64,000 bases of DNA from Polytrichum commune (lineage: Eukaryota > Streptophyta > Polytrichopsida > Polytrichales > Polytrichaceae): positions 31,572,144 through 31,636,143 of the forward strand of contig OX485809.1 in assembly GCA_950295325.1 (NCBI GenBank), in the 5' to 3' direction. The position numbers and the translations under genes are program-made. Below the pieces are notes generated by a model, which saw nothing but the letters and a program-made list of their open reading frames with translations, did not search any database and was not told where the DNA came from. Below are positions 5,820 to 58,599 of this stretch, piece by piece (positions within the stretch are counted from its first letter, which is position 1; every line of letters begins with the position of its first letter).

Positions 5820-5929
5820 ATGGTTTTAGGATATCCAAAGGGCTCTTTATTTAGAAAAAAAAGAATAACAAAGAAATGCACAATTTGGTTCTCCTGCTCA
5901 CTGCCTTCTCACATGCAATGATCGGGGAG

Positions 5930-9440: not shown

Positions 9441-10036
9441 AGAAAGACAGCTACAAATGACGCCCTTTGGTAAGGATCATCTGGAATAAAGAATAATTCA
9501 TTTCATATTTGTTGTGCATTTTCAGGTGGACTTCACATGTGTAAGATATGCTTGTTGGTGATGATCATCAACACATGGGGACTCAAGATTTAAGACCTCC
9601 GGGTCCACATACATGGAGGGCTCGCTTGGGGGGGGGGTAGTCATTGGTTGGAGTAGCAATATACGTGCGAACAAATGATAGGGTATTTTAAAAACATGGG
9701 GCAAAAAATTATAAATGGACTTAAGAGTAATATAGGGTATCAAAAATGACACTGGACATCTTTAAAGTACTATAGGGTATGGAATAATAGGTAATTTGGA
9801 ATTATAAGTAATGCAAGCCATTTTTCTATTAACCCAAAGTAGAAATTTGCATAATGATAGCATGTGAAAAAAAAAATTGAAAGTAATACCCCCTTATAAA
9901 ATAGTGGTTGTTCGCACCTACATCCTTAACTTTTTAACACACTGCCCCCCCCGAGAGGGCTCGTCGTCGAGCTCCAGAGCCGACATTATATCAAATTCCA
10001 TGTTTATGATGTGGCACGCGATGTGGATTATCTACC

Positions 10037-10240
10037 TTGAGAGACTTGGCATATGCAAGAGGGAGAGTAGGTAAAGATAATTTGCAATGCTTTCATTTGC
10101 ATTTTTTCTTGTTGTATTACTGTCATTCAGCTCATGAGAGTCATTTGTATGTGAACCAGGTAGATATTGTAGACCACTCTAGTGAGAGTAGAGAAGCATA
10201 TGCTCTCCTAGTAGATTTGGCCTCTAGAAGTATATAGCAA
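10037..10240 (+). pseudogene. Transposase C-terminal relic (integrase type)
   Basis: The plus-strand translation VGKDNLQCFHLHFFLLYYC, followed by HSSESREAYALLVDLA, matches the end of the transposase at 25294-22438 (VGKDVLQCFHLHYFMSHYC, then HSAESLEAFHLLVSL). The agreement runs to the stop codon in both, so this is the last part of the same final exon from a diverged second element in the opposite orientation. The catalytic core is not visible upstream. Only this tail remains. Confidence 0.72.
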
Positions 10241-11345
10241 ATATATATGAAAAATCCAATCAAAGACCAACGTACTTTGAATCAAAAAATTTTGATGTTT
10301 CTAAAATTAGTTATGAATTTCCGAAGTTGAAATAACATGGGTTCTAAAGTGCTGCTCTTCACCATGGGTACATCTAAACATTGTGAAGTGTCCCTTAGTC
10401 CCTAATATCGTTCCCAATTAGCATGCAATTTCAAGTCAACTACAAGGATCCGCACATCCATTGCAATATTTGTTGCGATGCAAGTTGCAAATTATAAGAT
10501 AGAGAAGGCTGACTGGCAGTGTTGTGGGTAAGAATTTAAAAAAAAAATGATTACACCGAAGCACTTAAGTTGTAGACAATTGTACAATTGTTGAGAGCAA
10601 GATAGGCAACGGAAGCAAGTGATGAACTTCCGGTGATCCCAAAGGAAGGCTGGCAGTTGGCAAATATAAAGCTAACAAATGGGTCGTGGAGGTACTGATA
10701 TAGGGTGTTATGATGGAGGCAAAGCCAAGGGAAAAGTAAACATTAAAGTAAAATTAAAAGTGAATGTAAAAGTAAAATCCGAAAGGTCAATGTACCTAGT
10801 TCTGGATGAAGTATGCCACGTCACATATTCATCCTTGGATGATGCACTCTTATCTTTCATGCGATCATCTACGGATGACATGCTTTCATCCAACGTTCAT
10901 TGTGTGGGAGGCTCACACGATCTCATCCATGTGGATGAAAAACCTCGTCAGCCCTGACGGAAGTTTTCTGAGGAGGGGGAGTCGCAGAGTGAAGGATTTC
11001 GGAGAGTGGAGGATTGGAGAGCTCCAGCCCTTATATTGTTTCACTTTAAATGTAGGTTTTTTCTATGAGTTTCTGTTGTTTGGTTTATTCTGTGGTACTG
11101 AATTTTACATAAAGTGCTAATTAGATATAGTTGCTTCGCCACAAAATTGCACTAGCATCTTCGTTTGGAGGTTAGACTTCCTTGCAATTTACTTGTCCTC
11201 TTTTGCTTTGGAGGTCTTATTGTTGCTGGCAGTGGTACCCTTGTTAGAAATATATGACAACATGCATTAGAGTCTGAAGCTGAAGATACAATATAGACAA
11301 CTAAAGGTAAAATATGAGGTGCCGTTTTTCTCTTTCGCCCCTCCA
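10241..11345. other. No gene recognised
   Basis: The stretch contains AAAGTAAA/AAATTAAA-like short repeats near 10730-10790 and open frames without recognisable content. Nothing is supportable as a gene. Confidence 0.4.
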
Positions 11346-11349
11346 TCTT

Positions 11350-12216
11350 CTTGATTTCTAGGGCAACCTACTTCGCATATTTTTTTCGGCCTTCTTGGTT
11401 TGCTTCTCAACCTGTTTCTTCGCATTCTTTTGGTTTGTAAATAATTTTGACTTCAAAGCGTTCGCAAACATCTTCTCCACCTCCTTCTTTGCTTCCTTTG
11501 TCCTATTTATTGGTCCGTACTTGCACAGGAATCTATTGAAAAGCCATATAAATCCATCATAATGGTTTACAAAAATAGTCCAATATCTTAAGATACCCTA
11601 TACCCTAAACCGTATTCATCAAAATGCAAACTCCAAGTTACCAAAACTGGCATGGTGCCAACATGACAGGGTATAACTTACATAATTTTTTTTTGTAGGA
11701 AACTACCTTCTTTTGCATTCTTTGCAATACCTTCCTTGTGCCCTAAACTAGGAACCTCATTGAATGCGCATAGGAAATCTCGCATACTCTGTTCACCAAC
11801 AACAAAATCCTAGAGCCTATCCCACGGAATGATGGCCTTGCATATATCCCTACTCTTGCCTTGTCTTTGGTTGGTTTTCTCCTCCCAAAAATGTCATGTC
11901 GAAGAACCCGGGGGGTGGGATCTGGAACTTTGCTTGCAGATTTTCAAGAGTGACATCCTGCATCCTAAACCTTTCTTGTGCTCTGGATTTCAAACTCGTA
12001 TTGCTGTCTTTATGTGCGATTGTACCTGCACAAACCTCCAGCTTGGAAACCAGTGCCTCTCCATCCCGTAAATTCTCCGTGTCGCTTCTTTTACGACAAA
12101 TCTTAAACTTTCCTCAAAGAAGACATGTTCAACTACCAAGTCCATAATATCAACCTCCATGGCGAGCTCCCATGACAACGTTCCTCCAAACGCCTTTGCT
12201 ACAACAGCATGACGCC
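11350..12216 (-). other. Coding-like minus-strand pieces, unidentified
   Basis: Minus-strand open stretches read like protein: about 12216-11990 (RRHAVVAKAFGGTLSWELAM and onward), about 12000-11850 (VTLENLQAKFQIPPPGFFDM) and about 11530-11380 (a Lys/Glu-rich probable coiled coil, EAKKEVEKMFANALKSKL). I do not recognise the family. It is probably an old repeat-derived gene. The 15.5-kb transposon begins at 12223, within or next to this locus. The GC-rich DNA just beyond its far end (27755-28060) may be the other side of the same locus. Confidence 0.35.
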
Positions 12217-12222
12217 TAGAAC

Positions 12223-12432
12223 TAGGGTGTACCAAAAAGGCCATGTCTTGTCAACTGTGCAAAAGGCCGGGCCACCCGTGGTCGAGGCCGGGGTACCTGT
12301 GCTCCGGGGTAATGCCCTTGAGGTCGAAAATTTACGACCTGCCCGCTCCAATTTATCATCCATTCAGTTTTTTGTCATTCGTTATGCAAGCCACGGGAAC
12401 CGCATCGGCTGCCGCACTCGTCTTGCCGCACT
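12223..12432 (+). repeat. Left terminal inverted repeat of the 15.5-kb transposon
   Basis: The repeat begins TAGGGTGTACCAAAAAGGCC and ends near GCCGCACTCGTCTTGC. It aligns with the complement of 27510-27748 over its whole length with scattered differences and one extra GGCCGGGCCACCC-like block in the right copy. It is GC-rich, unlike the interior, with repeated GGGCCACCCG/GGGGTACC motifs that could be transposase binding sites (inference). Confidence 0.88.
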
Positions 12433-12590
12433 CCTCGTCTTCTCTTTGGACACTTCTCTCTAGGGTTACGGTTTCAGATCCCTTGTGTCCCATTGCGAAC
12501 GCTTTCAAGTTTTCCTTCCCAATCGCATGAGCAGGAGGGTTTGGCGCCTTCAGAGTCGGAAAACTGGTGTCTTGCGCAATCTTGCTTGCA

Positions 12591-13051
12591 AAACTGTTGA
12601 TGAAGTGAAAAAGTTGTGCCTACACTGTCGAAAAAGTGCCAAGAGTGAAAGAGTGTTATTTCACTATAATGGTCATGGTGTCCCCAGACCAACAATCAAT
12701 GGCGAGATTTGGTTGTTCAATAAGGTGATCAGTGATTCCACCTTAAGATGTACTTGTTGGAGTTCTCTGTTGTTGGACTTTTATTAAGGAACAACTCCTG
12801 CGATATGGGGTTAGGGTGCCTTGGTATTGTCTGAAGAGGTCTTTCACTTTGGTCATGCTCATTTTGTTTTGCAAAGACGTGTTCCTTCCTAGCTAGAATG
12901 GTTGCATAACTCTGGCAATAATGGATGTATGCAGCACTTCACACAGTACATACCATTGTCAGTTTACGAGTTGGAGTCGTGGCTTGGAAATCCTTCCAAC
13001 TATGTGTTTGATTGCTCGGCAGCAGGCATGATTGTAAATGCTTTTTGTGAA
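12591..13051 (+). pseudogene. Captured RAPTOR fragment, two exons
   Basis: Exon 12591-12724 reads [20 protein letters not shown] and on to GEIWLFNK. Exon 12935-13051 reads [16 protein letters not shown] and then [15 protein letters not shown]. They join in phase 0 across a GT-AG intron. This is the conserved N-terminal caspase-like domain of RAPTOR, the TOR-complex-1 scaffold. RAPTOR is over 1,200 residues long, and only about 80 are present with no promoter, start or later WD40 part. Upstream similarity stops at about 12590, 160 bp inside the terminal repeat. The piece has the opposite orientation to the transposon genes. It is a captured fragment, not a gene. Confidence 0.88.
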
Positions 13052-13524
13052 GTGAGTTTCTTCAACCATTAACATTTAGAGCTTTGAATGGAACTTCTTT
13101 AGCAAGTTTTAAAGCAATATTTTGTTAATGAGTTCAAAAAATAGGAGATGTTAGCATCGCAAAGATGTGCGAGCTCGTCAGTTGCTTCGTCAGTTGTGTG
13201 TGTGTGTGGGGGGGGGGGGGGCTAACCCTAGCAATGTAAGCTGGGCGGAGGAAACCCTATGTCTCTCTGAATAGCATTGGTTCGTGCAGTTCTTGGATTT
13301 TAAGCTAGCCGGGAAATTTGTGACAAGTAAGATCCACCTTCTAATATAAGTTTCAGAAGTTACAATTTTTACTAAAATGTGGTAGATTTGTGACCTAAGT
13401 TGGTTTCATTGGCCTTCTTTTTTGTGGAGTTCCTTGGAAAGGTTTGAGGGATTTGAAGATTCATTCAATATACTTCTGTCACAGAGCAACTTGTAAGTAA
13501 CACTTCTTCTCTATGCATGTGCAG

Positions 13525-13671
13525 AAAGCTAAGCCAAAGATGGGCATGGTTGAGAGTGCAAAGTTTTTGTTGACATCACGGTACATTCGGGATCTTGCTA
13601 CTCTGGTGGTTGCTTATGGAATCAGTATCAATCTGGTTGAGGTCACATGGAACGGCAAACTGAAAGCGCAG
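13525..13671 (+). pseudogene. Captured plastid ATP/ADP translocase (NTT) exon
   Basis: A single 147-bp exon lies between GCAG and GTACAT. It reads AKPKMGMVESAKFLLTSRYI, then RDLATLVVAYGISINLVEVTW. This is a highly conserved internal segment of the plastid-envelope nucleotide transporter, which exchanges cytosolic ATP for stromal ADP. The full protein has about 12 membrane spans and 600 residues, and no other NTT exon is visible. It keeps its reading frame and both splice sites, so it could be spliced into a chimeric transcript, but it cannot transport on its own. Confidence 0.85.
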
Positions 13672-13859
13672 GTACATGCACTTATTTCACCCAGGCCAAT
13701 ACTTTCTTGGAAAGCACAAGTATTGCCTCGTGTGTTTTTTGGAGCCTGTCATGCAACCCTAGTACATAGCAGTGCTGAATATAAAGGATATGTTGAATGA
13801 ATGGGACTCTATAGTTGGAGATGGAGACTGTGGTACAACGGTGAGAACTTGCAATGTGT

Positions 13860-14130
13860 ACTATGGATTTAGTTTTGTAGAATGCCACATATTCTTCTAG
13901 ATGTGGTGGCGTGGCCAAAAAATTCTTTGCCTTCCCCAAGAGTTTAGGGTAATGGGTGTGATATACCTCAAAAACATGCTTGCTGCATTCTTGGTTTAAG
14001 CGATGGAAGCAATGCTGACGTGCTCCATCGTGAGCTAGTGCTAGAAGAACTTGCTCTTTCAAATATTTATGTGGTTGCTTGCAATTTGTTACCACTCCCC
14101 ATGCCAAGTCTGGAATGTCAGCATTCCTTT
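13860..14130 (-). CDS. Unidentified minus-strand ORF in the transposon
   Basis: About 90 residues read like protein (ADIPDLAWGVVTNCKQPHKY, later RLNQECSKHVFEVYHTHYPK), downstream of the HECT gene on the same strand. The full open frame runs 14194-13682. I do not recognise it. It may be a terminal exon of a transposon gene or another captured piece. No clear start codon or splice pair was found. Confidence 0.3.
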
Positions 14131-14211
14131 TTGTGAAGTAATTTGGGTTTTTGCTCTGGACATTTTTGACTGAGTGGTTGATTACGATGTACAAATCATT
14201 TGATGTTTGTA

Positions 14212-14590
14212 GATGTCCACAGGAGCAAAAGCAATACTTGAAGACGTTGGCAAGCAGTAAGTACTTCTAGAGTTGTTTCCTGTTTGCACTGTTGTTTCCT
14301 TTTTGATATCTTAAAATTACAAACTAGGATTTCTTAACAAGTGAACAATTTTTTTGAATAAAGTACCTATTAACACATGTACGTAAAAAACGACTCCCAA
14401 TAATCTGAATCTTTGTATGGGTCTTTACTGCTGATATGCAATCAATTCTGCGCTCTCTTATTACATGTTATCGAGAAGTCCTTTTTCTCCCAACATTTTT
14501 GCTATAGGAAGCAAATATTAATTGCAAGATATCTGTTTCTTTCAATTTGCAGCTACCCTCTCAATGATGCCGCTGCCACTTTACATTAAC
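14212..14590 (+). pseudogene. Two captured exon-like pieces, source unknown
   Basis: After TTTGTAG, exon 14212 to about 14256 reads MSTGAKAILEDVGK and ends at GTAAGT. After TTTGCAG, about 14553-14590 continues in frame as YPLNDAAATLH before a stop. Both have good splice borders and codon-like composition, but I cannot name the parent gene. Confidence 0.35.
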
Positions 14591-14704
14591 TGGGGTGCTC
14601 AATAAGAAGAGCAACAGGTGCTCTTTCAGAAATTCGATCAAAAGCACATCTGTGAGGGATCTGCAAGGTTTTTATTAATGCCAAAGAACATGTGCAATTT
14701 TTCC

Positions 14705-14800
14705 AGTAGTCCACCTGCAATTGAAAGACTATCAGGAGGGCTATTTCAAGAAGTCGTCATCACCAACACGATCCCGGTCAAGGAGCAAAACTACAAAAAC
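14705..14800 (+). pseudogene. Captured PRPP synthetase fragment
   Basis: The plus-strand text SPPAIERLSGGLFQEVVITN, followed by TIPVKEQNY, is the near-C-terminal block of class I ribose-phosphate pyrophosphokinase, which makes PRPP for nucleotide, histidine and tryptophan synthesis. Similarity ends abruptly at about 14795, before the conserved LSVANLLGETIWRVH-type ending. The intact enzyme is about 310-400 residues and only some 30 are here. It lies just downstream of the HECT stop codon, on the opposite strand. Confidence 0.82.
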
Positions 14801-16417
14801 GCTACAATTACCGTGGAAGTGGCAAAAAACGCATCCCATGGGCTACATTGTTCGAGGTAACTTGTCACATATTACCAAATGACCTATCCATGATACTGTA
14901 GCATATTTTGCGGTACATTGTGTCAATGTCCTTGTATAGTGGAAGGTGGAGCTTTTCAAAGCATGTTGATGAGGAGATGAGAGGGTCATTTGTCCTATCT
15001 AGGAATTCGATACTCACTACCTTGCTTCCAAAGTACTCGTTCCCAGTGATGAACACAGCAAGTCTTGATCGTTCACTGTACGTCATTTTATGATCACATG
15101 CTCTGAACATGTTTTCCAAATCTCTAGGAATTGTGCTAGAGAAATTGCACATGGCGAGGAACTCAGATGCCTCCATAGCATTCTTGGCACTGAATATTAC
15201 ACGCAAGGTGTATGCTGTAAGGGTGTCCAAAGACTCCGTCATCCTTTGCTTCTCCGGAATAGATGTGTTTGCCTGTTCAACTGCAAGGTAAAAACCCTCC
15301 CTCATAGCTTTTCCAATTTCTAGTCTCCCATTAAATAGGTGACTGAAAATAATGCTTCCCAGCTTGTCTTCCACTTGCTGTTGCCAAGTTGCCTCTTCAA
15401 GTGTAAATCCACTAAATGTCCACCCAAGGTCTCCTAGCAGATTATCTTGTAATTCCTTGATCAATTTTGTAGCAAATTCAAGGCTAGTCCTTAGAGGAAC
15501 TACAAGGGACCATGTTGCTCCCCAACCAAGGCGGAAGTCCCTTTCCAATGCTTTGCGGGTATCTGGGCAAACTGAAGAGGATAAATTTGTTGATGTAGGC
15601 ACTTCATTGCAAAGCATCAGAAGCGTTGCAAATGAAAACGGTCTGCTCACTTCAATGCCATGCAATGTGAGCAGGTAAATCAAGTGCCCAACCATGCGAG
15701 CCAAATCAAGTTGAATGTCTGGTCTGACAATGGCAACATCGACCTTGGGGTAAAGGATCTTTCCTGCCATGTCATCTGGATACTCGAAAATAGCATTGTA
15801 GTTGAAGGAGCTCCCCCAAAATTGCTTCCAGCAGTTGCTCAACCATGAATTTGTCAACCCAGAAAGGTCAACTGCAGTTTCTTTAAATCCCAAGGTATGG
15901 ATTGAATCCACTTATGGCTTGTAGAAATATTCCTTAGTGCTTGAAATCCAATCCCAATGTCTTGTAAATGCTTGAAGTTCTTTGCCTTGTGTAACCTACA
16001 CATACCACAAATAAGAATGATGAAGTCGAAAAGTTTTGGACTTTAGAGTTGAAATGGTATCAATGTCCTGATGTGTGTTACAGTCAAACTTTAAATTGTG
16101 CCCTGAAAAACATTTGTCATTCAAAATCATCACTGTATGTTATATCCCAACTAATTTCCAATCCTTATGCACTCAGTATGAGGAAATTGCACCGAAGGGC
16201 TATATGGGCAGTCCACTTACTGTGATTTCATTAGATGTTGCACAACTTACTGCTTTGAATGTGGGTCAAAGTTAGCCCTCATATTTTTAGAGCTACACCT
16301 AGTGAATACTCTGCTGGTTATGTCTGTTTTATGTGTTTTATTTTTACCCGACCTTTTAAAAACATGTCAAGTAATTTAACTTCTGGTTGTCATGCGTGTT
16401 TGTCTGTTTGGTTGCAG

Positions 16418-16516
16418 CTTATTTCAGCCATAAGTGGAGGAATTATCGATCTTTCATTTGATGATGTGGGATATGCATGGCAAATTTTAAATTGTTTATG
16501 TACTTTGGCATATTCT
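16418..16516 (+). pseudogene. Captured GDP-mannose transporter (GONST-type) exon
   Basis: A 99-bp exon lies between TTGCAG and GTAAGC and reads LISAISGGIIDLSFDDVGYA, then WQILNCLCTLAYS. This matches the conserved internal segment of plant Golgi GDP-mannose transporters, which carry the sugar nucleotide from cytosol to Golgi lumen. Only one exon out of a roughly 330-residue, ten-span protein is present. It sits in the region between two HECT exons on the opposite strand, so it may lie inside an intron of that gene. Confidence 0.78.
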
Positions 16517-17361
16517 GTAAGCTGCATACTACTCTTCTAGAAATTTGGAAATTATGCTTTTAGTTTTGATTGAATTGGTTAATTATGGAGTAACTTTCTA
16601 TACTTCAAAAGTTTCTGGACTGTGGTGACTTTGCAAATTATTGGTGTTTATTTGAGGTTAGTTTGTAATTGCTTAGATTTTTAACATCTTAGAAATTACT
16701 GTGCTATCTATACCTTTAGGGCTTGCCTTAATCCTCATCTTTGAGAGCGATGTATTGTCAATGTAAGTTGCCCCACCAATCTCATTTCTCTTGCTTGACA
16801 AACTTAAAAAGAATTTGGGCTCTGTTAATGTGTTTCTGCCAGACCTAGTCATAACTTGAGAGATTGCTCATCCTACACTTCATGTTTTAATACCTGTATC
16901 TGAAAGTTGGAATTCGTCCAAAAAAATAAAAAATAAAAAAATAACCTCAATGGGTGTAGCTCTGATGCTTCCTAAGGCATCCTGAAGTGGTTTAAAAATC
17001 TGTGATGACATGTAGAGGCGTTGATATGCAAGGAGAGTTTTATCCACATTTTCCCTTTGTTCAAGTAGCTCAATCTCTTCTTCAGGGCCATCTACACCAT
17101 GATAACACATTCTTCGGAGTTGTTGAATTGTGAATGCAGAGAATGCTTCATTACGTATGAAGCTCTCAATGCATGGATCAGTTGGAGCTTCAGTCTTGTT
17201 GAAATCCGGTCCGCCATAAATTTCAGCAAAAGCCTTCGCATGCTCTTTCTCAGGACCAAGTGAGCATCTCTCAATAGCATCCTCTAGCAAATCCCAATCC
17301 ATCCAAAATCTTCTTGCTTGAAGTTCAAATTCAATTTTGAAATCCGTATCACTATACATTG

Positions 17362-17974
17362 GGGTGCAAGCACGGTAAAGTGGACAACTCCTGATCCATG
17401 CCTAGTGTTAAGTGAAAGTGATTCAATTTTATGTACTAACTTTGAATTTTGTGAAGAAATAAACCATAGACATTTAAAAAAAATCTTGCTCTACAAAGCC
17501 AAGCAATTTATGATGACAAAAATAATTCCAAGAAAAGTCTACCTATTTTAGAAGACGGTGCAAGTGGCGTGCAAGTAGGTGATATTGAATAAGTGATTGT
17601 CTAAAATTTGTTTAAAATATGATAAAATTACATTAAATTGATGGTTTTTTACAAAGTTTTGTGGTGATGCCTTCAAGTAGATAATGAATTCAAGGAATAT
17701 AAAAAAATTCTAACTTCAAAATAGTTAAGGTCATGAAATCAACATCCAAAACCAAACTCAATCATTTGTTTTTGAGCATCACTTTTGATGCTAAGTATTG
17801 AAGATCTCAACTTGATATTCTACATTTGAGTATTTAACACAACAATAGAGGTCATCATAAAAAAAATTCCAATTTATATAACTCTTTGCTACTACTTTTA
17901 GGCCTTTGACCAAAAAAATTATGGTTTTAGTATACCAGAGCACTTTTTTGGTCCACTTTACCATGCTTGCACCC
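17362..17974. mobile_element. 613-bp MITE inserted in a HECT exon
   Basis: The ends are an inverted repeat of about 24 bp starting GGGTGCAAGCACGGTAAAGT (left) and GGGTGCAAGCATGGTAAAGT (right, complement), with one mismatch. The flanks carry ATTG on both sides (17358-17361 and 17975-17978), or ATT if the extra terminal G is counted as part of the element. The interior is non-coding and AT-rich. On the minus strand the HECT-gene text stops at one border and resumes at the other, so the MITE entered a coding exon after the host transposon had formed. Confidence 0.8.
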
Positions 17975-18989
17975 ATTGATATTGAATTGTGTTGAGTAAG
18001 TTTGGAAAGAATCGATTCAGACATTGATATCCCACGCCTTAGTTGTCTTCGCTTTTGCAGATTCATACATGCATCAAAGACCTCTCCACTGCTGTTTGAA
18101 TTTTGAAGTACATCCTTGCAGAAATCCTCAAAAGTAGACCAAAAAACTTGGGAGGTACGTGCTGAAGCCTCTCTTTTGTCAATTTTTTCCTTGAAGTCCA
18201 TGGATTCGTAGTATGCAATGTGACAATCCTCCCAAACAATTGCTAATTTTTCCAACTCTGTGAATTCTTCGTCCAGATGCAACGCGGGTACCAAAGTTGG
18301 ATGTGGTGGACTTGTAGGTGCCCTGGATGGAGAAACAAACAAACAAGAAATTAAATTATGTGGTCAAAGAGAACCGTTGATTCTGCAGCAGGCAAGATAT
18401 ACATATTTACAGAATTTGCAAATATCATGCGAGGGTACTTCCATGTAATATCTATCCATTTATTGCTATTCCAACATTGTATAAATGGAGGCAATTGACT
18501 TGTCAATATCAGTTTCTCTACTTGTTGATTTTGCAGGGTTTGGATATGTGGAGACTGTAGACTCTGTTCTTGTCTGAAAGATAAGTTGGTGAAAAAGGTC
18601 ATTATACTAAATTGTATGTCCACTATAGTGGATGGATCAACTGTAAGTTAAATGAAAACAAGAAGTTGAGGTTTCAACTTTTTAAGTTCAAGAGATCTCT
18701 TGTGATAGGCACACACCATTCATCATCAACATTGCTTGTAGCCGATATCCAAGTGTTTTACATGATTGTTTTAAATTGCTCATTCCAATCACTTACCCAT
18801 ATTCCAGATCCCTTCTAACAATGCTGATGACTCTGGTGGGATTCTGGTTTTGAGGAGAGAAGCCAACTGCCTCATGAGTCATAACCCTTGACGTTATCTC
18901 TGGCTGACCTGCAAAAATCCAGAATGTACTGACACATTATTATGCCTATCATATGATTTGCAGTTTCCAATTTCTAAGTGGAATGCACC

Positions 18990-19135
18990 TGCCACACCTT
19001 AACCTTTTGCTTGCATGCTGGCAGGGCCTCGCAAACTTTGCTTTTTGCGACAAAAAATTGACTGGTGCCAACTTGAAGTACATTCTTAGTGTTGGGCCTA
19101 CATTTGTCATTATGAAATTCATCCAGTGTGAGTAG
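18990..19135 (+). other. Exon-like membrane-protein piece, source unknown
   Basis: After CTGGCAG at about 19022, the plus strand reads GLANFAFCDKKLTGANLKYI, then LSVGPTFVIMKFIQ, to a possible donor. The second half would be a membrane span. It looks like one more captured exon, and I cannot name the source with confidence. It overlaps the region between HECT exons. Confidence 0.3.
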
Positions 19136-20104
19136 TTTATACAACCCAGTGTGATTAGAATGATTTTATACATGAATAACTACTTATAGGACATAAGTTC
19201 TGACTTTTTCTAAACCTGTGGGATGACAGTCATACTAGCTAAAAATTGCAAGCCAGGTAATGTGGATACAAAGTCAGTTCTAACAGCCCCGGATTGTTGA
19301 TTCTTAGGAACAAACTTATGTGGGACGAGGTATGTACGAGAGGACTGCAGATTATGCAATTGCGATGCAGGTGAAGGTGAGGCATCTGAAGGCGAAGCTG
19401 AAGGAGGGACCCATCCGGCTGGTAAGTACACAATATTGGTATTTGCACTTAACTTCCCGTAGAGAGCATTTGCATCCTGTGTATACATCTCCAATTGATA
19501 GGCCCGTTCTGTTCCTACTCCATTTCTTTTTTTGGTGCGCTTGAGGAAAGTGCCTGTGACGTGTGGATATGGGGATTGCATGTTTTGGTAGGCAGGTAGC
19601 CTCCCAAAAACCTCTGCAACATGCCATTCGACGCTATGTGGGGGAATGGCAAGGGATAGTTGACTCCGGCCCACCTTTTGGTCTCCGGTAGAGAGATTAC
19701 CACAGACTCAACATGTGGAGGCCAATGAGTGACGGTTGCCACTCTAGTCGGTGACAAACGTATTCCTTCAGGTGCACCTAAAAATGTGCGTGTAATGAAC
19801 TTTGCAGGGGCTTCGAGGGAAGGCGCTACTCCTGGTTGAAGAGGTGCCATTGCCGGTAGCGGAGTGGTTGCCACTGAAGTTGTTGAAGAGCTGCTGCCTA
19901 GAGAGGAGCGCGGGCGCCGGTGTGTTCCAACCTTGGGTGGGTAAGAGAAGCCTCCAGCCCTCTCTACAATGGCTCTTGGAAATGTTGTCATTCTGGCAGG
20001 TGTTGTGGCAGGTGTTGTGCTTGTGACGGACCGAGGAGACTCATTGCTATCCATCTGCATACGCATGAATAATTTTACAACAAGAGAAACATATTAAATG
20101 ACAA

Positions 20105-20995
20105 ATATAGGCCTTCACTCTCAAAGACACCTGAACTAGTACGTACTGTTAACTATATGTATCACCTTTTGCAGGATCAGGCAATTAGGGTTTGCAACTT
20201 GCAGTCAATGGTGGTAATACAATTCAATACCGCATTACTACGCTTAATGATCATGTAGGGGTGTCACAACTAACAGGCATAGATAGTCACCTCTCCCTTC
20301 TGAAGCAAATGACAGAACATTGCACACCCTTTTGTTTTTTCTGTTTGAATTGATCTGATGACCAATTCAGGATCACAAATCTTGTGTTTATCTCAATACG
20401 GTTTGACTGTTGTAAAGTAGCACACTGTACTTCGGTATGTATGATGCACACTGATACGTCCCTTTTGTCTTTGGTACCTGTGGGAGGTAGGTATGAGTAT
20501 ATGTATGGGCTAAAGCGCTTCTGTTGTAAGTTCTCAGGTCTTCACTCTCAAAGACACCTGAACTAAGTACATACTGTTACCTGTATGTTTTACCTTCTGC
20601 AGGGACGAGGCAATGGGGATTTACAATTTGCAGCCAATGCTGATGACATCGTTCATGACCATATTACTAAGCTTATTGATTATGTAGGGGTATCACACTA
20701 ACAGACATAGTGAATTCTCACCCTTAAGGTAATGACAGAACATTATACAGGCCCAGAAGAGTCCTGAGATTTTTGGCTAGATTTCTTATTTTACTCTTCT
20801 ATTGCAGCAGAGGTTGCCTGATTGAAATTCCAGTACACTATAGATTCCTGATAGTGTACTGATATTTGCTGATAGTGTATATTGCTGTTGTAGGTAGGCA
20901 TGGGTAAATTGTATGGGCGAAATGTTTCTGTGGTGACTTCTACAGGCCTTCACTTACACACACCTGAACTAGTACATAATGTATGCATACATCAA
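20105..20995. repeat. Tandem duplication, unit about 430 bp, two and a fraction copies
   Basis: A block beginning AGGCCTTCACTCTCAAAGAC at 20110 returns at 20535 and, in part, at 20943. Each of the first two copies also has a CTGCAG or TTGCAG acceptor-like site followed by a similar GGCAAT...TTGCAG...TTATTGAT segment, and then GTAGGGGTGTCACA-like text. Divergence is moderate. The array sits between the transposase and HECT genes and may be the HECT promoter region (inference). Confidence 0.7.
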
Positions 20996-21189
20996 TTTCT
21001 CCCTTACAGAGTACATATGGCAATGTACTTCTCACGTATATATTCATCACCTTCAACATACACAGAGGTATGAGAAACATGACACCGCCAACTGATAAGA
21101 TTCACCAAAGCTTTGAAATGAAGCAATGAAATGAAATGAAACACACACACCTGCATGAAGCAAGCTCCAGCTACTCTGCCCCGCTGCTT

Positions 21190-22437
21190 CAATAAACGTA
21201 GGACTATTGATAATCAGTCATGACTGCTCGCGAACCCAAGTCCTTCAAAAATTCGGATTCAATCTTGGGCTCGCATCCAGTGTGAGAAATTCCACACTTC
21301 AATTCAGCCTCTTGACCTCAAACTCAAGTCAAACCACTAGCACGAGTACCAATCTTTGAGCATCGGAATGGTGCAATTGTTGAGACGAACAAGATCAAGA
21401 ATATGGCCCTATTCACACTATCAACATCAAGAATATGACTGACTTTGGCATACCCTACATCCGCATTAAATGGAACTGACATTAATTCGAGCTAGTAACC
21501 TCCGAATTTTTTATTAAAAGAATTCACTAATAAGATCATATATATATATATATTCTATTATCCTAAAGTAGTGTGTCATTTACTAATATTAAATAATAAA
21601 TGTACCCGTTAGGATGATAAATACTCTTCTTAATTTTGGTTATTACTTATTGAAATCACATTGATAAGAGATTACTTTTTTTTGCAGAAAACTAAGAGTA
21701 CTTAAATCTCAATACCCAACATTCAACATTCAACATTCAACATAACATTATGTTAAACTTGTGGCGGAATTACATGGTTAAAGTAAAGGTCGAGGCGAAA
21801 GCCATCACGGAGATATCTCGTAATAAATCTAATAATTGCTTAACACGAGCCTGTTTTCCAAATGTTTAACATGACTGCCACATTGTCGCATGAGGATATA
21901 TGCCTCCTTGGGAGGAGGGCTTGGTTAGTTTGTTTTTAGCCCCTATTATTTAGTTAGCTTGTTTATTTTTGAGTTTCCTTTTGTTTAGGACAAGGTAGGT
22001 TAGATATTTAATGGCATTTTGGTGTAATTCTTTCATGAGACTTTTAATGCTTGATTCTAATAATTGCTCATACATACTAGGCTAATAGGCTAAGGACAAC
22101 CTTAGATTGACTGAAGCTTAGGAAGCTTCAAAATATTCATATTCATTTATGAGATCTCGGATATTCACAGTTTTGGTATAACTTTCTCTTGGCCACTTTC
22201 CTATCAAATTGGTTGTCATTCTTGGTGAGGCAAGTCACACTATAAGTTAGAATGCAAGATATGTTTGCAAACCCTCTCAAATAATGCATTGACAATAAAT
22301 TTTCAATTTGTCTTTTGCAAAAGAAAAGTAGCTTTGAATTGATAGCTTTGAATTGAATTGAGTTTGTATATTTAAGACAAGTTCCTTCACGTCTTTGTTA
22401 TCAAATATTAAGCTCAATAGTAAGAGCATTGATGAAT
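21190..22437. other. Transposon interior without recognised gene
   Basis: The stretch between the tandem duplication and the transposase stop is AT-rich, with a TA microsatellite at about 21538-21552 and ATTCAACATTCAAC short repeats near 21720. No captured exon is recognised. Confidence 0.45.
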
Positions 22438-25294
22438 CTATAAAGAGACCAGTAAATGAAAGGCCTCTAAACTTTCAGCAGAATGTTCTAGTGGGACAAG
22501 GTGGCCTACAAGAATGCCGCTATCTTGAGATAGATAGCAATAGTGCGACATGAAATAGTGTAAATGGAAACATTGGAGTACGTCCTTTCCAACCTTGCCT
22601 ATGTTGTATACTGAATCCCGAAGAGCGACGAGAAATGGTGACAAATCTAGGATGTCAAACAAAGTGGGATCCGGAGCAGTTCTACGAGCTACCCAAGTTC
22701 GTAGACCTTGTGGACCCAAATCTTGCGAGCCAATGTGTTCTTGATTGTCTTGGACATGTCTGTCTTCGATGTGTGATGTCCACCTATTGAACCACAATTG
22801 AGAAGCCAAATTTCAGTGACAGAACCACAAAGAGATGATTTCTAAGAGAAAATTGAATGGAGTTTTGTGATCTAATTGAGCTCACCCATGAAGACGCTCA
22901 AATTCCTGAAAGTATCTTGCCGGTACATGAGAGGGACGAAACCTTCCTTGTCCATTGATGAGACGGACTCGGTGGAGGTTCCAAATGCCGATCCACTCGT
23001 TTACAATCTCTTGTAAAATTGGGATGTAGACAGCCTGGAAAGAAGCCCTCTGATACGGATCGTCCGGTATGAAATGTCCTTGCTGAACCATATCCTCAAT
23101 AGCATTCTTCTGAAACCAAATTACTTTCTCCCATAGCAACCTCCACCAGTGCTCGATTCGTTGATTGTGAACAAACGAACCAACAAGGAACGGATTCCGA
23201 GTTCCAGAGCGTACTTCTAGCATGTATCTGCGGATCAAAGCGTGCTCTGCAGCAAAGTCAGACCTCACTCGCAAAGGAGGACCAAATTTCTGAACCGCTT
23301 CAGAAAACGGTTCAAAGAGGGTTTCTTGGTGCTTGTTTGATGCAACTTTCGCATATAGCACATAATGTGAAGCCCCGTCGATGCAACCGTGTATGCGAAT
23401 CCCAAACATGACCAATTTGTCATAAGCTGGAGAAAAGAACAAAAAAAAGAACAAGTTAGACCAATGCAACAGTAGAGAACTAAACATTTGGCAACTGGAG
23501 GAGCACCCATTTTTTCAAATGTAAGGTATGCCGCCCTAAAACCAAGAGAATGTACCACATGCATACATTTGGATTATAGGATTATGGTTATAGGATTCTG
23601 TTGGTTTTAGGGTAGCATACCTTATATGTTTCAAGTGCCATTTATTATACATGTCAAAGGTCTACAAATTCCAACTGCAGAGTCGAGCTATCATTGAAAG
23701 ATTTAGAAGAATACAGAAGTCAAGTTCCATCATGTTCACTTTCTGTTGGGTCAATCCCTTTCGTGCACACTTTTTTTAAAAGCCAATTTGCTATTATGAC
23801 ATAATGGATGGGTCACACTGCTATGTTCATGAAGTGGTGTGATATTTGTATCTGAAACGCTGCAAATTGAAGTCAGGCTCTCTCTCTCTCTCTCTCTCAG
23901 ATGAGGTAATATCTTCCAGCTGGAAGTGATTCACCAGTTTCAAATAAATTAAATCGTTATTCGACCTTTTTCTGTTTAATTTGTTTTTAAGCGCTACCAG
24001 CATTATGCATCCTCGGCAATCGTCCTGAAATGGAATAATATGCAAATCTATCACATCGTATATTTTGCAGAACTTTCAGTGACGTAGGATAATTTTTCCC
24101 AGTGATACATGTCAAGTACCCATGGCTCTCATATCCTTGTAGTGAATTGAAGGATGCATTTGGCAACTGGAAGGTTCCATACACAAAGGGTTTTTCTATG
24201 GTCTATTTATTGATAACATGGTCAATTTAGATAAAGAGTACTGCGGTGATGCGCAATAGATGTTCTTTAATTAATTCTCTGTTTTGTGTTCTTCACGCCA
24301 TTGTGTGTGAATTGAAACTTTTATTTATAGCTCAAGGAAAACAGTACACTGCCATCACCTGGGAGGTGGACTACCAAAGTGAAATAAAACTGCACCTAAA
24401 TTAACATATAAATTTAAATAATTAACTGCACCTAAATTTGTAAAATAACAAGATATCTTACATCAGGTTTTTCTGACACTAACTAATCAAACTGCACCCA
24501 CTCCCGCCCCCCTTCCCTTGACGCCAACATTGCTGGAAGCCATGTCCGGGAAGAACCAGCGGTTAGTTGCAGATGAACTCGTTGAGTTCAAGACATAACC
24601 AGTTGAAGTTCAAGACTTCAGGAATTGTACCCATCATTTTAGAGGAATCTATATAATACACCTAAAATGAATGAAAGCGCAAAATACATTGCAGCTGAAG
24701 CCCTGGTGTACACCAAAAACAAACAGAACGGAAAATTAAAGACGACATAAGCAAAAACTTACAATCGATGTGCCAAAGCGCCATGGGAATAGTGACATTG
24801 TATTGTCGCCGAACGATGGGCAATGCTCTCCTTCGCCTACTGTAGTGAGCCTCTGTCCCCCAAAATAAGAAATTTGTTATAATGCTTTAAGAATGTTAAT
24901 GAAAGGAAATGTCACTACTCATCAAGTAGATAAAAAGAAATATAGTTTTAGATTTTGTACCTGATATCATCTCAAGGGCCCTCGCTACTGTGCGACGAGG
25001 TGCTCTAATTTGCACACGTGCAAGAGTGGCCCTCACATGCCGAATGCCCCAATTTGCCCCATGCTCTCTAATGGGAAGGGCAGCATCAATGGTGTTCGAC
25101 ATCTCTGAGGTTGTGAAGCGGTGATAGACTCGAAACTTGTACCCCATGGCTTTTGACATCATCCTCTTGAGCTGCCGTGAATCGGAGATGTTCAAGGATT
25201 CCGCAATTTTTTTGAATGGAGTCCCTTCATTCAGCATGGTATTCACGTACTGAACCAAGTCTGCTCTTGGCGGAGCCAAATTCTGGTCTGCCAT
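22438..25294 (-). CDS. DDE integrase-like transposase, four exons, open
   Basis: Exons 25294-24961, 24852-24763, 23426-22886 and 22783-22438 join with GT-AG introns in compatible phases to 437 codons including the stop (436 residues), with no internal stop. Exon 1 (from ATG, MADQNLAPPRADLVQYVN) ends in a helix-turn-helix-like block, WGIRHVRATLARVQIRAPRR. The core follows: WHID with Asp141, IHGCIDGASHY, VRSD with Asp198, and NQRIEHWWR with Glu233. The last two are separated by 34 residues, fitting a D,D(35)E retroviral-integrase fold. The C-terminus contains GKDVLQCFHLHYF. The protein should bind the terminal repeats and catalyse excision and insertion in the nucleus. The closest type I know is the integrase-core family of animal IS3EU elements. 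A second copy of its tail lies at 10037-10240. Confidence 0.88.
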
Positions 25295-26229
25295 GGTTTT
25301 CGTATTTCTTCGTCACCACTCTACGATACAAATTCCAATTTACAGGTGCACAGGTTTTGTCAGAAACCGCCATTCAAATATCACCATCTAGAAATCAAGG
25401 TATGGAATATTGGCTGCCCAACCTTCCTTAAGGACCTGAAGAAACCCTAAATTGCTTTCTAGCCATTTGAGTAACGATCCTACAATTAAATGTAATCCCC
25501 CAAAAAAATATCCTCATAAGTATTCATTTTCAAACAACACTTTCAGATTAAGGTAACCAGTAAATCATAAACAATATTCAAGAGACATTGTTGATCCAAA
25601 GCTTGGGAAAGGTTGTATTCTTAAGACAAAGCTATGAAAATGATAGAATTGCACACTAGAGTGTGAAATGACCGTTAGGAAAATACCAACATGAAGAACG
25701 TGCTCATTTGAAATTAGAGGATTGGGTGCGGAGGAGAGAACCCTAAGCAGAGAGATGTGAACAGAAGTTTGGCGAATGAACTGAATGTGAGAAATACAGA
25801 TTATCAATGTCACAAATGAGACATTGTCTAAAATAAGATTTCAAACTTTGTGAGCCTCATAACAATTATTTAAGATTATCCTGCGCCCGTTAAGTGTTGG
25901 ACTCCCAAGATTTTCGAACCCGGACCCAATAATCCCACCCTTATGCCACAGAAGTTGATGTGCATGCTGAAAATGTCACCAAGCATAGAGAACTGGTTCA
26001 ATGGCATTGTCACGAACTTTTGTTTGATTTAGAGATCAATCGAACAGTTTTTCCATTTGAGGAATAGACAACTGAGATAGAAGCCCTTTCCCAAAAGATC
26101 ACAATTACATAACTGCATTGAGAAATGGCTGTAGTAGCATCAAGGTTATTAAAACTCAATTGGGAGACCAACCTTGTAGGTAGGCAACATTGTCAAGCAT
26201 CTGATATCTTAAACAACTCGATGTCTCAG
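25295..26229. other. Transposon interior, upstream of the transposase
   Basis: No gene is recognised. The region just above 25294 would hold the transposase promoter; I see no decisive TATA element. Short open frames have no recognisable content. Confidence 0.4.
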
Positions 26230-26303
26230 GTTGCTGCTGGGGAAGTTTTGTGTGACATTGAAACTGATAAAGCTACTCTTGATTTAGAGTGCATGGAAGA
26301 TGG
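26230..26303 (+). pseudogene. Captured lipoyl-domain exon (pyruvate dehydrogenase E2-like)
   Basis: After GTCTCAG the exon reads VAAGEVLCDIETDKATLDLE, then CMEDG, and ends at GTATGT. The ETDKAT block contains the lysine that carries lipoate in the E2 (dihydrolipoamide acetyltransferase) subunit of pyruvate dehydrogenase. Flanking residues agree best with E2 of the pyruvate complex, plastid or mitochondrial. Only part of one lipoyl domain is present, so it has no independent function. Confidence 0.85.
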
Positions 26304-26720
26304 GTATGTTTCTTTCTAGGTTTCTATGAAATCTCTTACCTCTTGTTCTTGGCTTTTAGTAATAAATTTGCATCACGAAGTTGCACATGGTTGTTGTTAA
26401 GAGAGTTGCATGCAATTTGTTATCCTCATACAATATTGTTGCAAATGTTCATTTTTGTCTTTGATGGTAAATGTATGGTAAAATATTAATCTCTTATTCA
26501 TGACTAGAAGCATAGGACATTTCTAGAGCTTCAATGTAGAATTGCTCTGAACCTACTAAAATCATTCCCTGTCTGGCTCCATGGCAAAGTCATGGATATA
26601 TTCATTCAAACAGATGCTCAAATTTATTGCACATGTACCCTTTGAACTTCAACTCCCAACCATTATATATATCAGGACGCAGGAAAATCATGCAGAGGTT
26701 TGACCAATTTCAGAAATTAC

Positions 26721-26919
26721 CTGGACCAAGCCTAGATTTCTTCAACTTCTTCTTCTCCTTCTGCTTCTGTCGTTTAGCCCGTTTCTTAGCAGTGCGCTCC
26801 TCAGCAACAATTATGCGCTCTTCCCTTCGTTGCAGAAACTCATGCTCAACTGTCCTCTTCAAATAATCTGCTTCCATGCGTGACAGACGATCTTGCTCTC
26901 TCCTCCTCATCTGCCGGTA
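26721..26919 (-). pseudogene. Captured PRKRIP1-like exon
   Basis: A 199-bp minus-strand exon lies between GAGCAG and GTAATT and reads YRQMRRREQDRLSRMEADYL, later AEERTAKKRAKRQKQKEKKK. The Arg/Glu-rich helix followed by a TAKKRxKRQKxKEKK tail matches the conserved centre of PRKRIP1 (DUF1168), a spliceosome-associated protein with a long helix. It lies on the minus strand, unlike the other captured pieces, and upstream of the transposase start. Confidence 0.68.
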
Positions 26920-27509
26920 CTGCTCACAACGTGAACCTCTTTCAGAACACTTTCGCACCATCAACCATTTCTTCCATTACTAGTCATTGAACATACACAC
27001 TTCGCCTCAGTTCCGTCCTCACATGAAACAACACATCTCTCCCATATGCAAGCACTTGAACTGCTTCCAAGGTCCAAGATTGAATAAACAAAGTGAACTC
27101 TTCCCAGCTCGTATTCCATTTTCCCCTATTTCGCATGCCAAGAAATCCTAAAATTACACCGTCAGAGGAAGGAAACTGAAATTCCGTCCTCATGAAACGT
27201 CCACATCCCTCCCCTATGCAAGCACTTGTGTAAGTGTCCTAACTACCGTAGTTCAAGGTTTGGTATGACCATAGCTCAAGGATTCATCTTCCATCTCCCC
27301 TATGCCAACACTCGAGCTGCTTCTAAGTTCCAAAATCAAATAAACAGAGTGTCACCTCTTCCCAGTTCTTTATCCCACATTGCCTTGTAGTGATTTCTAA
27401 GAAACCCTAAAACACTTAGAATACACCATCAAGAAAGCAATTGTGGAAGCAACAAAGCCGTACCTGATGAAAATCGCTAGAACCAGAACCGGCTGAACTT
27501 CCTGAGGTG

Positions 27510-27748
27510 TTGCGGAGTGCAGCAAGACGAGTGCGGCACCCGAAGCGTTTCCCCGCGGCTTCTTTAACGAATGAAAAATAAATTAACGGATGATAAGTTG
27601 GAGTGGGCAGGTCAAATTTTTCCGCTTGCAAGGGCATTACCCCGGAGCACGGGTACCCCGGGCTCAACCACGGGTGGCCCGGCCTTGACCGCGGGTGGCC
27701 CGGCCTATTGCAGGGCCTGTGCTTACATGGCCTTTTTGGTACACCCTA
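27510..27748 (-). repeat. Right terminal inverted repeat of the 15.5-kb transposon
   Basis: This is the complement of the left end: read on the minus strand from 27748 it starts TAGGGTGTACCAAAAAGGCC and ends near GCCGCACTCGTCTTGC at 27510. It carries an extra GGCCGGGCCACCC-type block relative to the left repeat. The right TAGAAC target copy follows at 27749-27754. Confidence 0.88.
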
Positions 27749-27754
27749 TAGAAC

Positions 27755-28106
27755 ACCTCTTTTGCACGCACAGGTGCTCCACGGCGGAGGAGTTCGCCCG
27801 TGGTACGTGGGAGGGAGAATGCCCGAGCTAAGGTTCAGGGTGGCGCAGGGGGAGCAGTGCTGGACGGTCGGGGACGGTGACACGAAGGTGGCGACGAAGG
27901 AGGGGGCAAATCTGGGGTCCGGGTGGCGAAGGGTCTCGGAAGGGGGCCAAGAGGGGGCTGCCCGGCCATCGATGCTCAGCCCGGGAGGCCTCCGAGAAAG
28001 GCTCGTAGCACTACAATACAGAGATCCACTTCGAAGGGGATGCTGGGTAGTTGCAAAAGGATTATGAGTGGTTTAAATTTTGCTGCTGCTCTGGGAGATT
28101 GTCGCT
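27755..28106. other. GC-rich segment between the transposon and the DUF924 gene
   Basis: This is the most GC-rich stretch in the window outside the terminal repeats, with many CpG dinucleotides (about 27830-28000). It may contain the DUF924 promoter, or be the far side of the repeat-like locus split by the transposon. No clear TATA element and no recognised protein are seen. Confidence 0.35.
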
Positions 28107-30323
28107 ATGGCGATGACAATGGGTGCTCGCCTCCCAGTTCGGTTTCTCTACTACTCCTCGCACTCACTCTCTCGTCTCAGCTCTTGCACCAGTTTTCAGA
28201 ACAATCATCGAATTCGACTGCCATTTCCTGACTTTTCTGCATCCACACCAGGAATTTTTGGGTGCACATACCACTGCGGTTCTACTTTCGATGTGGGTCG
28301 CGTAAAGAAATGGAATTTGCATAATTTGTGGTGCAAAAACACTCTCCGTCTCTTCAAACGCGATGGACAGGTGCATCTGTGCCTGGCGAATGAAACGTTA
28401 CATTTCAGCACCCTGCATGGATGCAATCAGGGTTTTGAAAACCCTAATCAGAACAGCACCAGGCACATGAGGGCGGTAGCTTTGTCAGGAAGCGTCCAGC
28501 TCTCAACTGTTGAGTCTGGGAATATGGTGTCACCTGACGATGTTCTGCAGTACTGGTAAAGTTCATAATTATCCAATCCATGAAGGCTTGCCAACTCGAA
28601 ATGGCGACCAACATGTAACTAAATGTTCGTCAACATTTCTTGTTTTTGGCGGATGGTGACCATTTCGAGTTGATCACCATCGAGTGAGCTTCTTCAAATA
28701 CAGTTCACGAATCATGTTGAAGTCCGAATCACGTAATTGGCCTCTAGGAGGTTTAATACTGAGTGATACTTATGATTCCTTGTTAGTGGGGCAGGTGAGC
28801 GTTGCGAGACATCTTGATAGGACAGATTAAACCAAGTGTGCCAGTATTTGATTTGGTATTGTTGGAATGAATCCAACCCGCTTCAGATGTTTTTACAGAT
28901 GACTTTTGACATGACAAGTAAAATATGGCACCAGCGTCGGCGGATTCCACAAAGTTTTGTTTTGTTTTGTTTTACATGTGGAGTTTGCCTTCCTCACGTG
29001 GGCAAGGTACCCCATCTTGCTTCTGAACTCTACATGGGATACTTGGCAGGTTCGAGGACGTAGATATTGCCAAGAAGAAGTTCTCCAGAGCGATTTGGTT
29101 TTCTGGAGGAGAGGCTGTGGATACAGAGGTGAATGGGGCTAAAGTAGAAAAAATTGATGTTTATGTTAAAACAGAAACTCTTATTACCATTATTAGGAAA
29201 CTTGAAGAAGCATCTGAATGAGATTCTCCATGTCTCCACACCGTGACAAGTGTTTCTGAATTCCAAGAGGTTATGCATTACAACTAAGATTCCTCATTGC
29301 AGATCAAGGAGAGATTTGGTCACAGTTTGGAGCTGGCGAGCAAGGGGGAGCTAGATCACTGGAAATCGACCGCACGGGGTAGAGTTGCGCTGGTGATTTT
29401 GCTCGACCAATTCTCTCGTAACATTTATCGAGACACACCTCGCGCGTTTGCTCAAGACGAGGTTGCATTAGACATTTCCCTGGACACCATCAACAAGGTG
29501 AGTGAATTACCTACTCGGCTCAGGAAATTTCAAAGTGAAAGATTGGCAATAGAGTCGAAACAGAAGTTATTGAGCCTTGGAGTTAATGTCTTATCTATTT
29601 TGTCCATGATATTATTGGTGACATGGATATCCGGAATATCACAGGATTTGCAGGAGATTGCATGGTTAACTATGGTATGTCTTGGGGATTACTGTTTACA
29701 AATTATGAGCTACTCTTGAACATGTTGTCTCCGTTTAATCTCAGGGATTGGATAAACAGCTGAATTCCTTGGAGCGATATTTCTTGTACATGCCATTGAT
29801 GCATTCAGAGCGGTTGGAAGTGCATGAGAAAGCTTATCCCTTATTTCAAAGCAACGCAGATTCTCAGAAGGAAGATCCAGAGTTTTATGAGTTTCTGCTA
29901 AGGGCTGTTATATTTGAGGTGAGCCATGACTACAAATTAGACACACTGACATTTATTTTAGAAATTCTTAGGATCAAAGCTCATAATATGCTGCATAATT
30001 CGTGAATTTGAATAATTAACAATCACATTCAACATGAAGATATCATAAATTGAACAACGCTTATAAAAATATGAAGCTCCCACTATGCATGACACACTTT
30101 TTCATAGTGACCAGAATTCTGAGATGCACAAAAGAACCTCTTGCAGACTTACATTCTTAAATGTCACTCAGCACGGAATTGTATGTTTCTGCAGAGAGCT
30201 CACAAAACTGTCCTGATCAAGTATGGAAGGTACCCATCGCGGAATGTACTTTTGGGTCGCAAGAGCACCCCTGAAGAACAAGAATATCTTGCAAGCGGTG
30301 TTCTTTGGCCAGTGTCTCAGTAA
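28107..30323 (+). CDS. DUF924 family protein with predicted organelle transit peptide
   Basis: Exons 28107-28555, 29050-29128, 29303-29497, 29745-29918 and 30195-30323 give 341 residues with consistent GT-AG borders. Residues 1 to about 135 (MAMTMGARLPVRFLYYSSHS) are Ser/Arg-rich with few acids, like a plastid or mitochondrial transit peptide. The DUF924 body starts at about VSPDDVLQYW and continues with FSRAIWFSGGEAVDTE, LVILLDQFSRNIYRDTPRAF, YFLYMPLMHSE and KYGRYPSRNVLLGRKSTPEE. The family is common in bacteria, is all-helical and resembles TPR folds; its biochemical role is not established. The ATG at 28107 is chosen as the first one in the exon. The gene looks intact. Its start lies about 360 bp from the end of the 15.5-kb transposon. 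Confidence 0.88.
28592..28672. repeat. Hairpin in intron 1 of the DUF924 gene
   Basis: CAACTCGAAATGG (28592-28604) is followed 55 bases later by its exact complement CCATTTCGAGTTG (28660-28672), with some further pairing inward. It could be a small foldback element or a structured RNA. The stem is too short and its loop too wide for a confident microRNA call. Confidence 0.5.
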
Positions 30324-52177: not shown

Positions 52178-52429
52178 TCGTTTTTACAATGCACTAAGTG
52201 ATCTACCCGTGGGTGTTGCTCTCAGAAGATGTGGGTGTTGTGCTGAAGGCTAGATATCAAAGGATGAAATGAGAAGTTAGTCCTCATGGTAGCTCGGGCA
52301 AGCTGTGTAGTTCCAAAGTGTGGCAAACATCCCAAAGTGGGAGCCCTATTCAAATAAAACAATAGCCTAGTTAGAGTTATTGGGCGATGTCCATGAATCC
52401 CATATATTCTAAGACATGGTTGAACTATC

Positions 52430-52760
52430 TTTGGCCAATAGGCTTGATCAATAAATTCACTCTTTGCTCCACGGTTGGTATGTATGTAACTTTGACTGCG
52501 TTGTAACTCTATGTGCCTGGTCCTCATGTGTAGGACCGGGTTCTTGACCAATCTAACTGCTCCCATGTTATCACAATAAATGTGTGTTGAGTTGTTCTCG
52601 TCGAGCTTGAGTTTGCATAGGAGTGTTCTTACCCATGTTGCTTCCTTGGCCACGTTGGTGAGTGCCATGTATTCCGCTTCCATGGTGGATAGGGCAATAG
52701 TAAATTTTAATTTGCTCCTCCACAACATTGGCGCAACTCCTAACTTGAATACAAATCATG
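52430..52760 (-). pseudogene. Ty1/Copia RNase H fossil
   Basis: The minus strand shows the RNase H block of a Copia polyprotein (motif ALSTMEAEYMALT and, later, IYCDNMGA). It is a short, broken remnant lacking the rest of the polyprotein. The outer hAT element lies immediately beside it at lower coordinates. Long terminal repeats were not identified. Confidence 0.85.
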
Positions 52761-58507: not shown

Positions 58508-58599
58508 CTGAGGTATGGGGTATGCGGGCAATATGCCAAAGAGAGACATCTACTTTAGTTTCTTATACGGCAGTGACACGCGATTGTGTGGATTCTGGT

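Follow-up and report, generated by a model that had tools for sequence, protein, structure and literature searches.

A HECT ligase gene and captured host DNA in a probable IS3EU/GingerRoot-type transposon of Polytrichum commune

A stretch of 64,000 nucleotides from Polytrichum commune (assembly GCA_950295325.1, contig OX485809.1, positions 31,572,144 to 31,636,143; hereafter the window) harbors one inserted DNA transposon unit at positions 12223-27748. With a probability of roughly 85%, we identify this unit as a plant class II transposon that moves by cut-and-paste and is of the IS3EU/GingerRoot type, and we also propose a mechanism for it. It carries a predicted transposase with an integrase-like core, a gene for a HECT-domain ubiquitin ligase, and a patchwork of sequence matching other places in the genome.

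The element measures 15,526 bp and is bounded by perfect TAGAAC duplications. Its outermost 24 bases, TAGGGTGTACCAAAAAGGCCATGT at 12223-12246, recur as an exact complement at 27725-27748 (24/24), and after a short gap inward, the subterminal repeats at 12263-12434 and 27514-27686 are 85% complementary over 174 aligned columns (E ~4e-46). Among 200,000 random pairs of places within the window, six in-register matches out of six occurred with a frequency of 3.7e-4. An earlier reading made from the letters alone (the sequence-only reading) had claimed duplications outside inverted ends that stay alike for more than 200 bp; both points were borne out, and 12223-27748 is confirmed as one inserted unit. 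The G+C content climbs to 62% at 27501-28000, which covers the right end and its flank, compared with 29-53% in the other printed 500-base bins of 10001-30000.

To find related copies, we searched the whole genome (407,808,757 bases in 64 contigs, seven of which, 42-78 Mb each, hold ~406 Mb) with both ends. The left end gave 16 matches, of which two belong to the window and the rest are spread over eight further loci (14 matches). The outer end sequence was present at six of these eight, and the remaining two (C1:64274578 and C5:47865240) matched inner parts of the repeat only. All 10 matches of the right end fell at loci already found with the left end. Every one of the 10 printed ends starts with TAGGGTGTACCAAAA, giving TA..TA termini, a set that excludes the truncated right end of locus L009. 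Both ends were found at two of the six outer-end loci. The first, L011 (C1), spans 4,570 bp and contains a HECT exon but no transposase match, and its flanks read ACACTC/ACGCTC (5/6). The second, L010 (C4; 2,742 bp), matched neither HECT nor transposase. At a third locus, L009 (C2), a left end is followed by HECT and transposase, arranged as in the window, within ~6.9 kb. The other three consist of an end with a transposase (L039, C1), a left end only (L037, C5), and a divergent end with the start of a transposase (L041, C4). The 6-bp duplication is therefore seen in two of the three two-ended copies, perfect in the window and 5/6 in L011. Accordingly, the expectation that same-end copies with 6-bp duplications lie elsewhere in the genome held fully for the ends and partly for the duplications. 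The exact end pattern had no match in the collections of viral contigs and genome contigs.

The transposase gene is predicted as four minus-strand exons with GT-AG borders that join into 436 open codons. With the first 385 residues of the spliced protein as the query, the Pfam profile rva_4 matched residues 129-297 at E 1.8e-39; one exon open reading frame (ORF) alone matched the same profile (PF24764) at E 4e-33. The rve profile itself scored under its cut-off, and no zinc-finger (HHCC) profile was found in the transposase by Pfam. The integrase pattern points to D141, D198 and E233 as putative catalytic residues, and the first Asp lies within the 100-300-residue range given for the IS3EU/GingerRoot core in the excerpted text of PMC10045372. 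A protein search returned eight homologues at E <=0.001 with alignment identities of 39-95%. PDB sequences gave no match at E 1 and plasmids gave no match; in viral and prokaryote contigs, HECT and transposase yielded pattern matches, none of which was confirmed. Differences in exon 3 are concentrated at third codon positions (positions 1/2/3: 20/18/80 against L009, p 2e-14; 19/12/71 against L039, p 5e-14), and between the window and L009, w is 0.05 compared with 1.21 in the antisense frame. This skew, together with the low w, indicates that the transposase protein has been under strong constraint between copies. Two structural details of the gene were also observed. Intron 2 contains a 109-bp hairpin at 23519-23627 (arms of 33 nt, 88% complementary), probably a small nested element. 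In addition, L009:5216-5890 aligns unbroken over the site of the 102-bp intron between exons 3 and 4 of the window, an intron kept in L039 and in the homologue P0004, so that L009 presents a clean intron loss or gain.

We based the assignment on published descriptions of IS3EU/GingerRoot, namely TA..TA termini, a 6-bp duplication, and an integrase core without a zinc finger. The sequence-only reading had proposed the IS3EU type, and the published termini and duplication length fit this proposal. The superfamily is published, plants included, with GingerRoot described from Selaginella lepidophylla (Cerbin et al. 2019, as given in excerpts of PMC10045372). GingerRoot resembles the window element in its plant host, 6-bp duplications, mostly TA..TA ends and integrase-related transposase, but the same excerpts mention neither a HECT gene nor a patchwork of host genes, both of which the window element has. 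IS3EU elements likewise share TA..TA ends, 6-bp duplications and accessory genes next to the transposase; in the fungal families described in PMC12730594 (in excerpt), however, the accessory genes are TET/JBP and alpha-kinase, and those of rusts have TAYGG termini, whereas here we find HECT and TAGGG ends.

Other integrase-bearing elements, Ginger1, Ginger2 and Polinton, also have integrase-like DDE enzymes, but we consider these identities very improbable, the least likely of the alternatives. Ginger1 is characterized by an HHCC zinc finger and a 4-bp duplication, in contrast to the 6-bp duplication and absence of such a profile here, and the low score of rve also argues against this group. 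Polintons carry a DNA polymerase and virion genes next to the integrase. When the element was scanned over its full length in six frames, Pfam showed none of these (polymerase, ATPase or capsid domains) at E <=0.05, although Polintons likewise give 6-bp duplications according to the excerpts of PMC10045372. Pack-TYPE elements resemble ours in holding host gene fragments between terminal repeats (PMC8903248, in excerpt), as in the left region of the window and in the epimerase exon of L009. They are non-autonomous, in the words of the same excerpt, whereas the window element has its own open transposase gene; L011 and L010 show no transposase match. The superfamilies named there are MULE, CACTA, hAT, Harbinger-PIF and Mariner, and the word "Ginger" does not occur in the excerpted text.

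The HECT gene lies on the same strand as the transposase, which agrees with the sequence-only reading of a DDE integrase-like transposase and a HECT-domain gene on one strand. Its last exon matches PF00632 at E 7e-12, and the predicted HECT fold holds a putative catalytic Cys in the C-lobe, as in HECT E3 ligases. In PDB, the ORF matched only SMURF1 (0.0036) and HERC5 (0.0047), and a first structure model, from eight sequences, was poor (pLDDT 37). A genome search with HECT returned 20 matches. Apart from the window itself, two copies were 90% identical, one partial copy reached 83%, and eight relatives 35-62%; the last eight, at 29-36%, were weak (E >=7e-5). The two 90% copies are L009 and L011. 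Because the window copy and both of these sit inside elements with these ends, L009 minus its outer right end and L011 without a transposase, HECT looks like a regular component of the element family and not like a host gene that was captured. In public data, the HECT family comprised 34 clusters, with no match between E 5.6e-22 and 0.01, although some clusters are fragments of a single gene or contig and the search detects only relatives that share short exact words. Among the open-licence papers listed in our literature searches, none linked HECT to an IS3EU/GingerRoot-type transposon, and the word does not occur in the excerpted texts of PMC10045372, PMC12730594 and PMC10853768. Accessory genes of fungal IS3EU elements have been published (PMC12730594; also Styx, PMC10853768; both in excerpt).

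The opposite explanation, that HECT is simply another captured host gene carried as an accidental passenger, deserves attention since the element plainly captures host DNA, L039 has a transposase with no HECT nearby, and protein constraint between copies is weak. We regard it as unlikely in view of the placement of the closest copies, the lower identity of the next own-genome matches, and the gap in E-values among the public clusters within the reach of a word-based search. On constraint, comparison of the window with the two copies L009 and L011 gave w of 0.38 [0.23-0.66] and 0.29 [0.17-0.48]; between L009 and L011 themselves w was 0.65 [0.30-1.65]. A mutation-shuffle test gave P 0.011. However, the control frames gave similar values (antisense 0.37, +1 0.44). 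Because the control frames look alike, we do not claim purifying selection on HECT; protein constraint appears weak, and these values are suggestive.

Besides this weak constraint and the limited reach of the public search, several features of individual copies speak against our main reading. A nested insertion and a stop disrupt the window HECT gene, and the HECT exon of L011 contains one TAA. Thus, of the earlier claim of a complete 15.5-kb element, the single bounded unit with an open transposase stands, but its HECT gene is not intact. In L009, the right end lacks its outer portion and transposase exon 3 contains one stop, L010 has both ends but no target duplication, and L039 shows no HECT in the 20 kb read. 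The helix-turn-helix match of the transposase also falls under the Pfam cut-off.

HECT and transposase have diverged to very different degrees. Between the window and L009, the HECT exon shares 94.5% of its bases (dS 0.11), compared with 78% (dS ~1.8) in transposase exon 3. Within the HECT gene, identity is 94% in the last exon and ~90% upstream of it, and falls at the protein level to 52% and 30% further upstream. This difference between two elements points to cargo exchange, and it is most simply explained if a portion of the HECT gene was transferred from one element lineage to another through recombination or gene conversion. The unequal divergence might also suggest a chimera of two elements, or ends left by two separate insertions, as might the ~15% difference between the terminal repeats of the window past their outer 24 bases and the two-ended L010 without a duplication. 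Nevertheless, the perfect 6-bp duplication, with its low chance frequency, the identity of all 24 outer bases, and the order of left end, HECT and transposase kept in L009 make such an origin very improbable. A tandem duplication of ~215 bp (79% alike) lies between HECT and transposase at 20109-20744.

We further analyzed the host-derived sequences of the element. The left region at 12470-14780 gave 10 genome matches. One is the region itself, and three are subterminal sequences of sister elements. Of the other six, five tile most of 12593-14780 at 85-95%, and neighboring matches overlap at two joints, by 8 and 19 bp; these overlaps mark where the alignments end and are not proven junctions, and the five loci are candidate sources. 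The sixth match (C5:26175050; 71 bp, 83%) overlaps the fragment at 14670-14780. The first fragment has as its best match "Regulatory-associated protein of TOR 1" (RAPTOR), which we take to be an Arabidopsis protein. Since its intron is kept, the template was DNA rather than spliced RNA. An exon of a plastid ATP/ADP carrier forms part of the third fragment. Both this carrier and the RAPTOR match indicate a plant host, and the moss may have seven chromosomes. For the pyruvate dehydrogenase E2-like piece, the PDB single-domain chain 2dnc_A matched at E 3.7e-4, and the best whole-sequence E of 7.8e-7 came from two weak domain matches. The ORF at 13682-14266 and the ORF at 19210-19707 had no match in PDB, and one of the six frames of the left flank had none in Pfam. 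The left part of L009 holds a C-terminal epimerase exon (E 4.3e-7) common to L011, with an epimerase-like motif at its right end recognized by eye; compared with the patchwork of the window, different copies therefore carry different host fragments beside their ends. Candidate fragments in L010, HflX-like (E 0.055), Ypi1 (E 0.0022, below cut-off) and SKI3-like (by eye), were not used as evidence.

Fragments of at least six host genes had been proposed for the window element. The five-locus patchwork, which includes RAPTOR and the ATP/ADP carrier, remains, as do DUF1168 and the weaker pyruvate dehydrogenase E2. The coding-looking stretch 19213-20093, however, probably does not belong among the host fragments, given its match to an upstream region of HECT in L009. 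Because the best comparable copy with both genes, L009, is only ~6.9 kb, captured or nested sequence accounts for much of the 15.5 kb. The features of the element are listed in Table 1.

Table 1. Positions in the window of the features of the transposon.
Feature	Position	Strand	Basis or remark
Target site duplication TAGAAC, left	12217..12222	.	direct reading
Left terminal inverted repeat	12223..12434	+	outer 24/24 bases, then 85%; end sequence recurs at six other loci
RAPTOR fragment, two exons, intron kept	12593..13175	+	95% to C2:58410159
Captured fragment	13192..13323	.	87% to C6:24112019
Plastid ATP/ADP carrier fragment	13316..13777	+	89% to C5:41570175
Captured fragment	13759..14618	.	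85% to C7:24865675
Captured fragment	14670..14780	.	89% to C1:14333700
HECT exon, 348 codons, Cys in SSTCFEKL	14868..15911	-	in-frame TAA immediately upstream
Upstream HECT-gene coding exon, ends approximate	16955..18310	-	interrupted by nested element
Nested 613-bp inverted-repeat element, CAAT duplications, ends GGGTGCAAGC	17362..17974	.	inside HECT exon; absent from L009 and L011
Probable N-terminal coding part of HECT gene	19213..20093	-	52%/62 aa and 30%/47 aa identity with L009
Transposase exon 4, conserved tail, open to stop	22441..22783	-	homologues P0003, P0004
Transposase exon 3, putative second Asp (RSD) and Glu (QRIE), 34 residues apart	22886..23426	-	Pfam rva_4; codon-position test against two genome copies
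Transposase exon 2, ends WHI(D), putative first catalytic Asp (D141)	24763..24852	-	exon prediction and homologues
Transposase exon 1 (predicted), weak helix-turn-helix	24961..25294	-	HTH_7 E 0.01, below Pfam cut-off
Pyruvate dehydrogenase E2 lipoyl-domain-like fragment, weak	26224..26316	+	Pfam E 0.004, below cut-off; PDB 2dnc_A
DUF1168 fragment	26737..26919	-	Pfam E 4e-10
Right terminal inverted repeat	27514..27748	-	contains 21-bp tandem repeat at 27648-27706
Target site duplication TAGAAC, right	27749..27754	.	direct reading

Elsewhere in the window, 58580-61425 is occupied by a 203-bp tandem repeat in ~14 copies, and the palindrome-like CCTCTCGGAACCGAGAGG is part of its consensus. Two ORFs resemble, by eye, a piece of a piggyBac transposase (5337-5825) and a piece of a Copia RNase H (52222-52755).

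On the basis of structure and family, we propose that the transposase would use its N-terminal region to bind the long terminal repeats and would cut at TA..TA, and that the DDE enzyme would insert the element with a 6-bp stagger. Given the patchwork and its overlaps, host fragments may enter through template switching during repair of the excision gap or of the element itself; the Pack-TYPE survey prefers capture by tandem insertion and re-mobilization (PMC8903248, in excerpt), a route that may also have operated here. By analogy with the TET/JBP genes of fungal IS3EU, a gene that moves between element superfamilies in fungi (PMC12730594, in excerpt), the HECT protein might aid the element; its most likely action would be to ubiquitinate a host silencing factor or to tune the transposase level. 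The HECT segment could shift between element lineages via recombination or gene conversion. We tentatively suggest, at somewhat less than even odds, that a plant IS3EU/GingerRoot lineage adopted HECT as an anti-silencing or transposase-control module that spreads between transposase lineages and even to transposase-less satellites such as L011.

The left region of the element illustrates capture of genes as DNA, with a retained intron and matches to five loci within 2.3 kb, and the superfamily concerned is not named in the excerpted Pack-TYPE survey (PMC8903248). Enzymes borne by fungal transposons, such as TET/JBP and alpha-kinase in IS3EU, suggest that such elements equip themselves against silencing. 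A ubiquitin ligase carried in a plant by elements that resemble this superfamily would extend the idea to protein degradation, and it offers a testable system.

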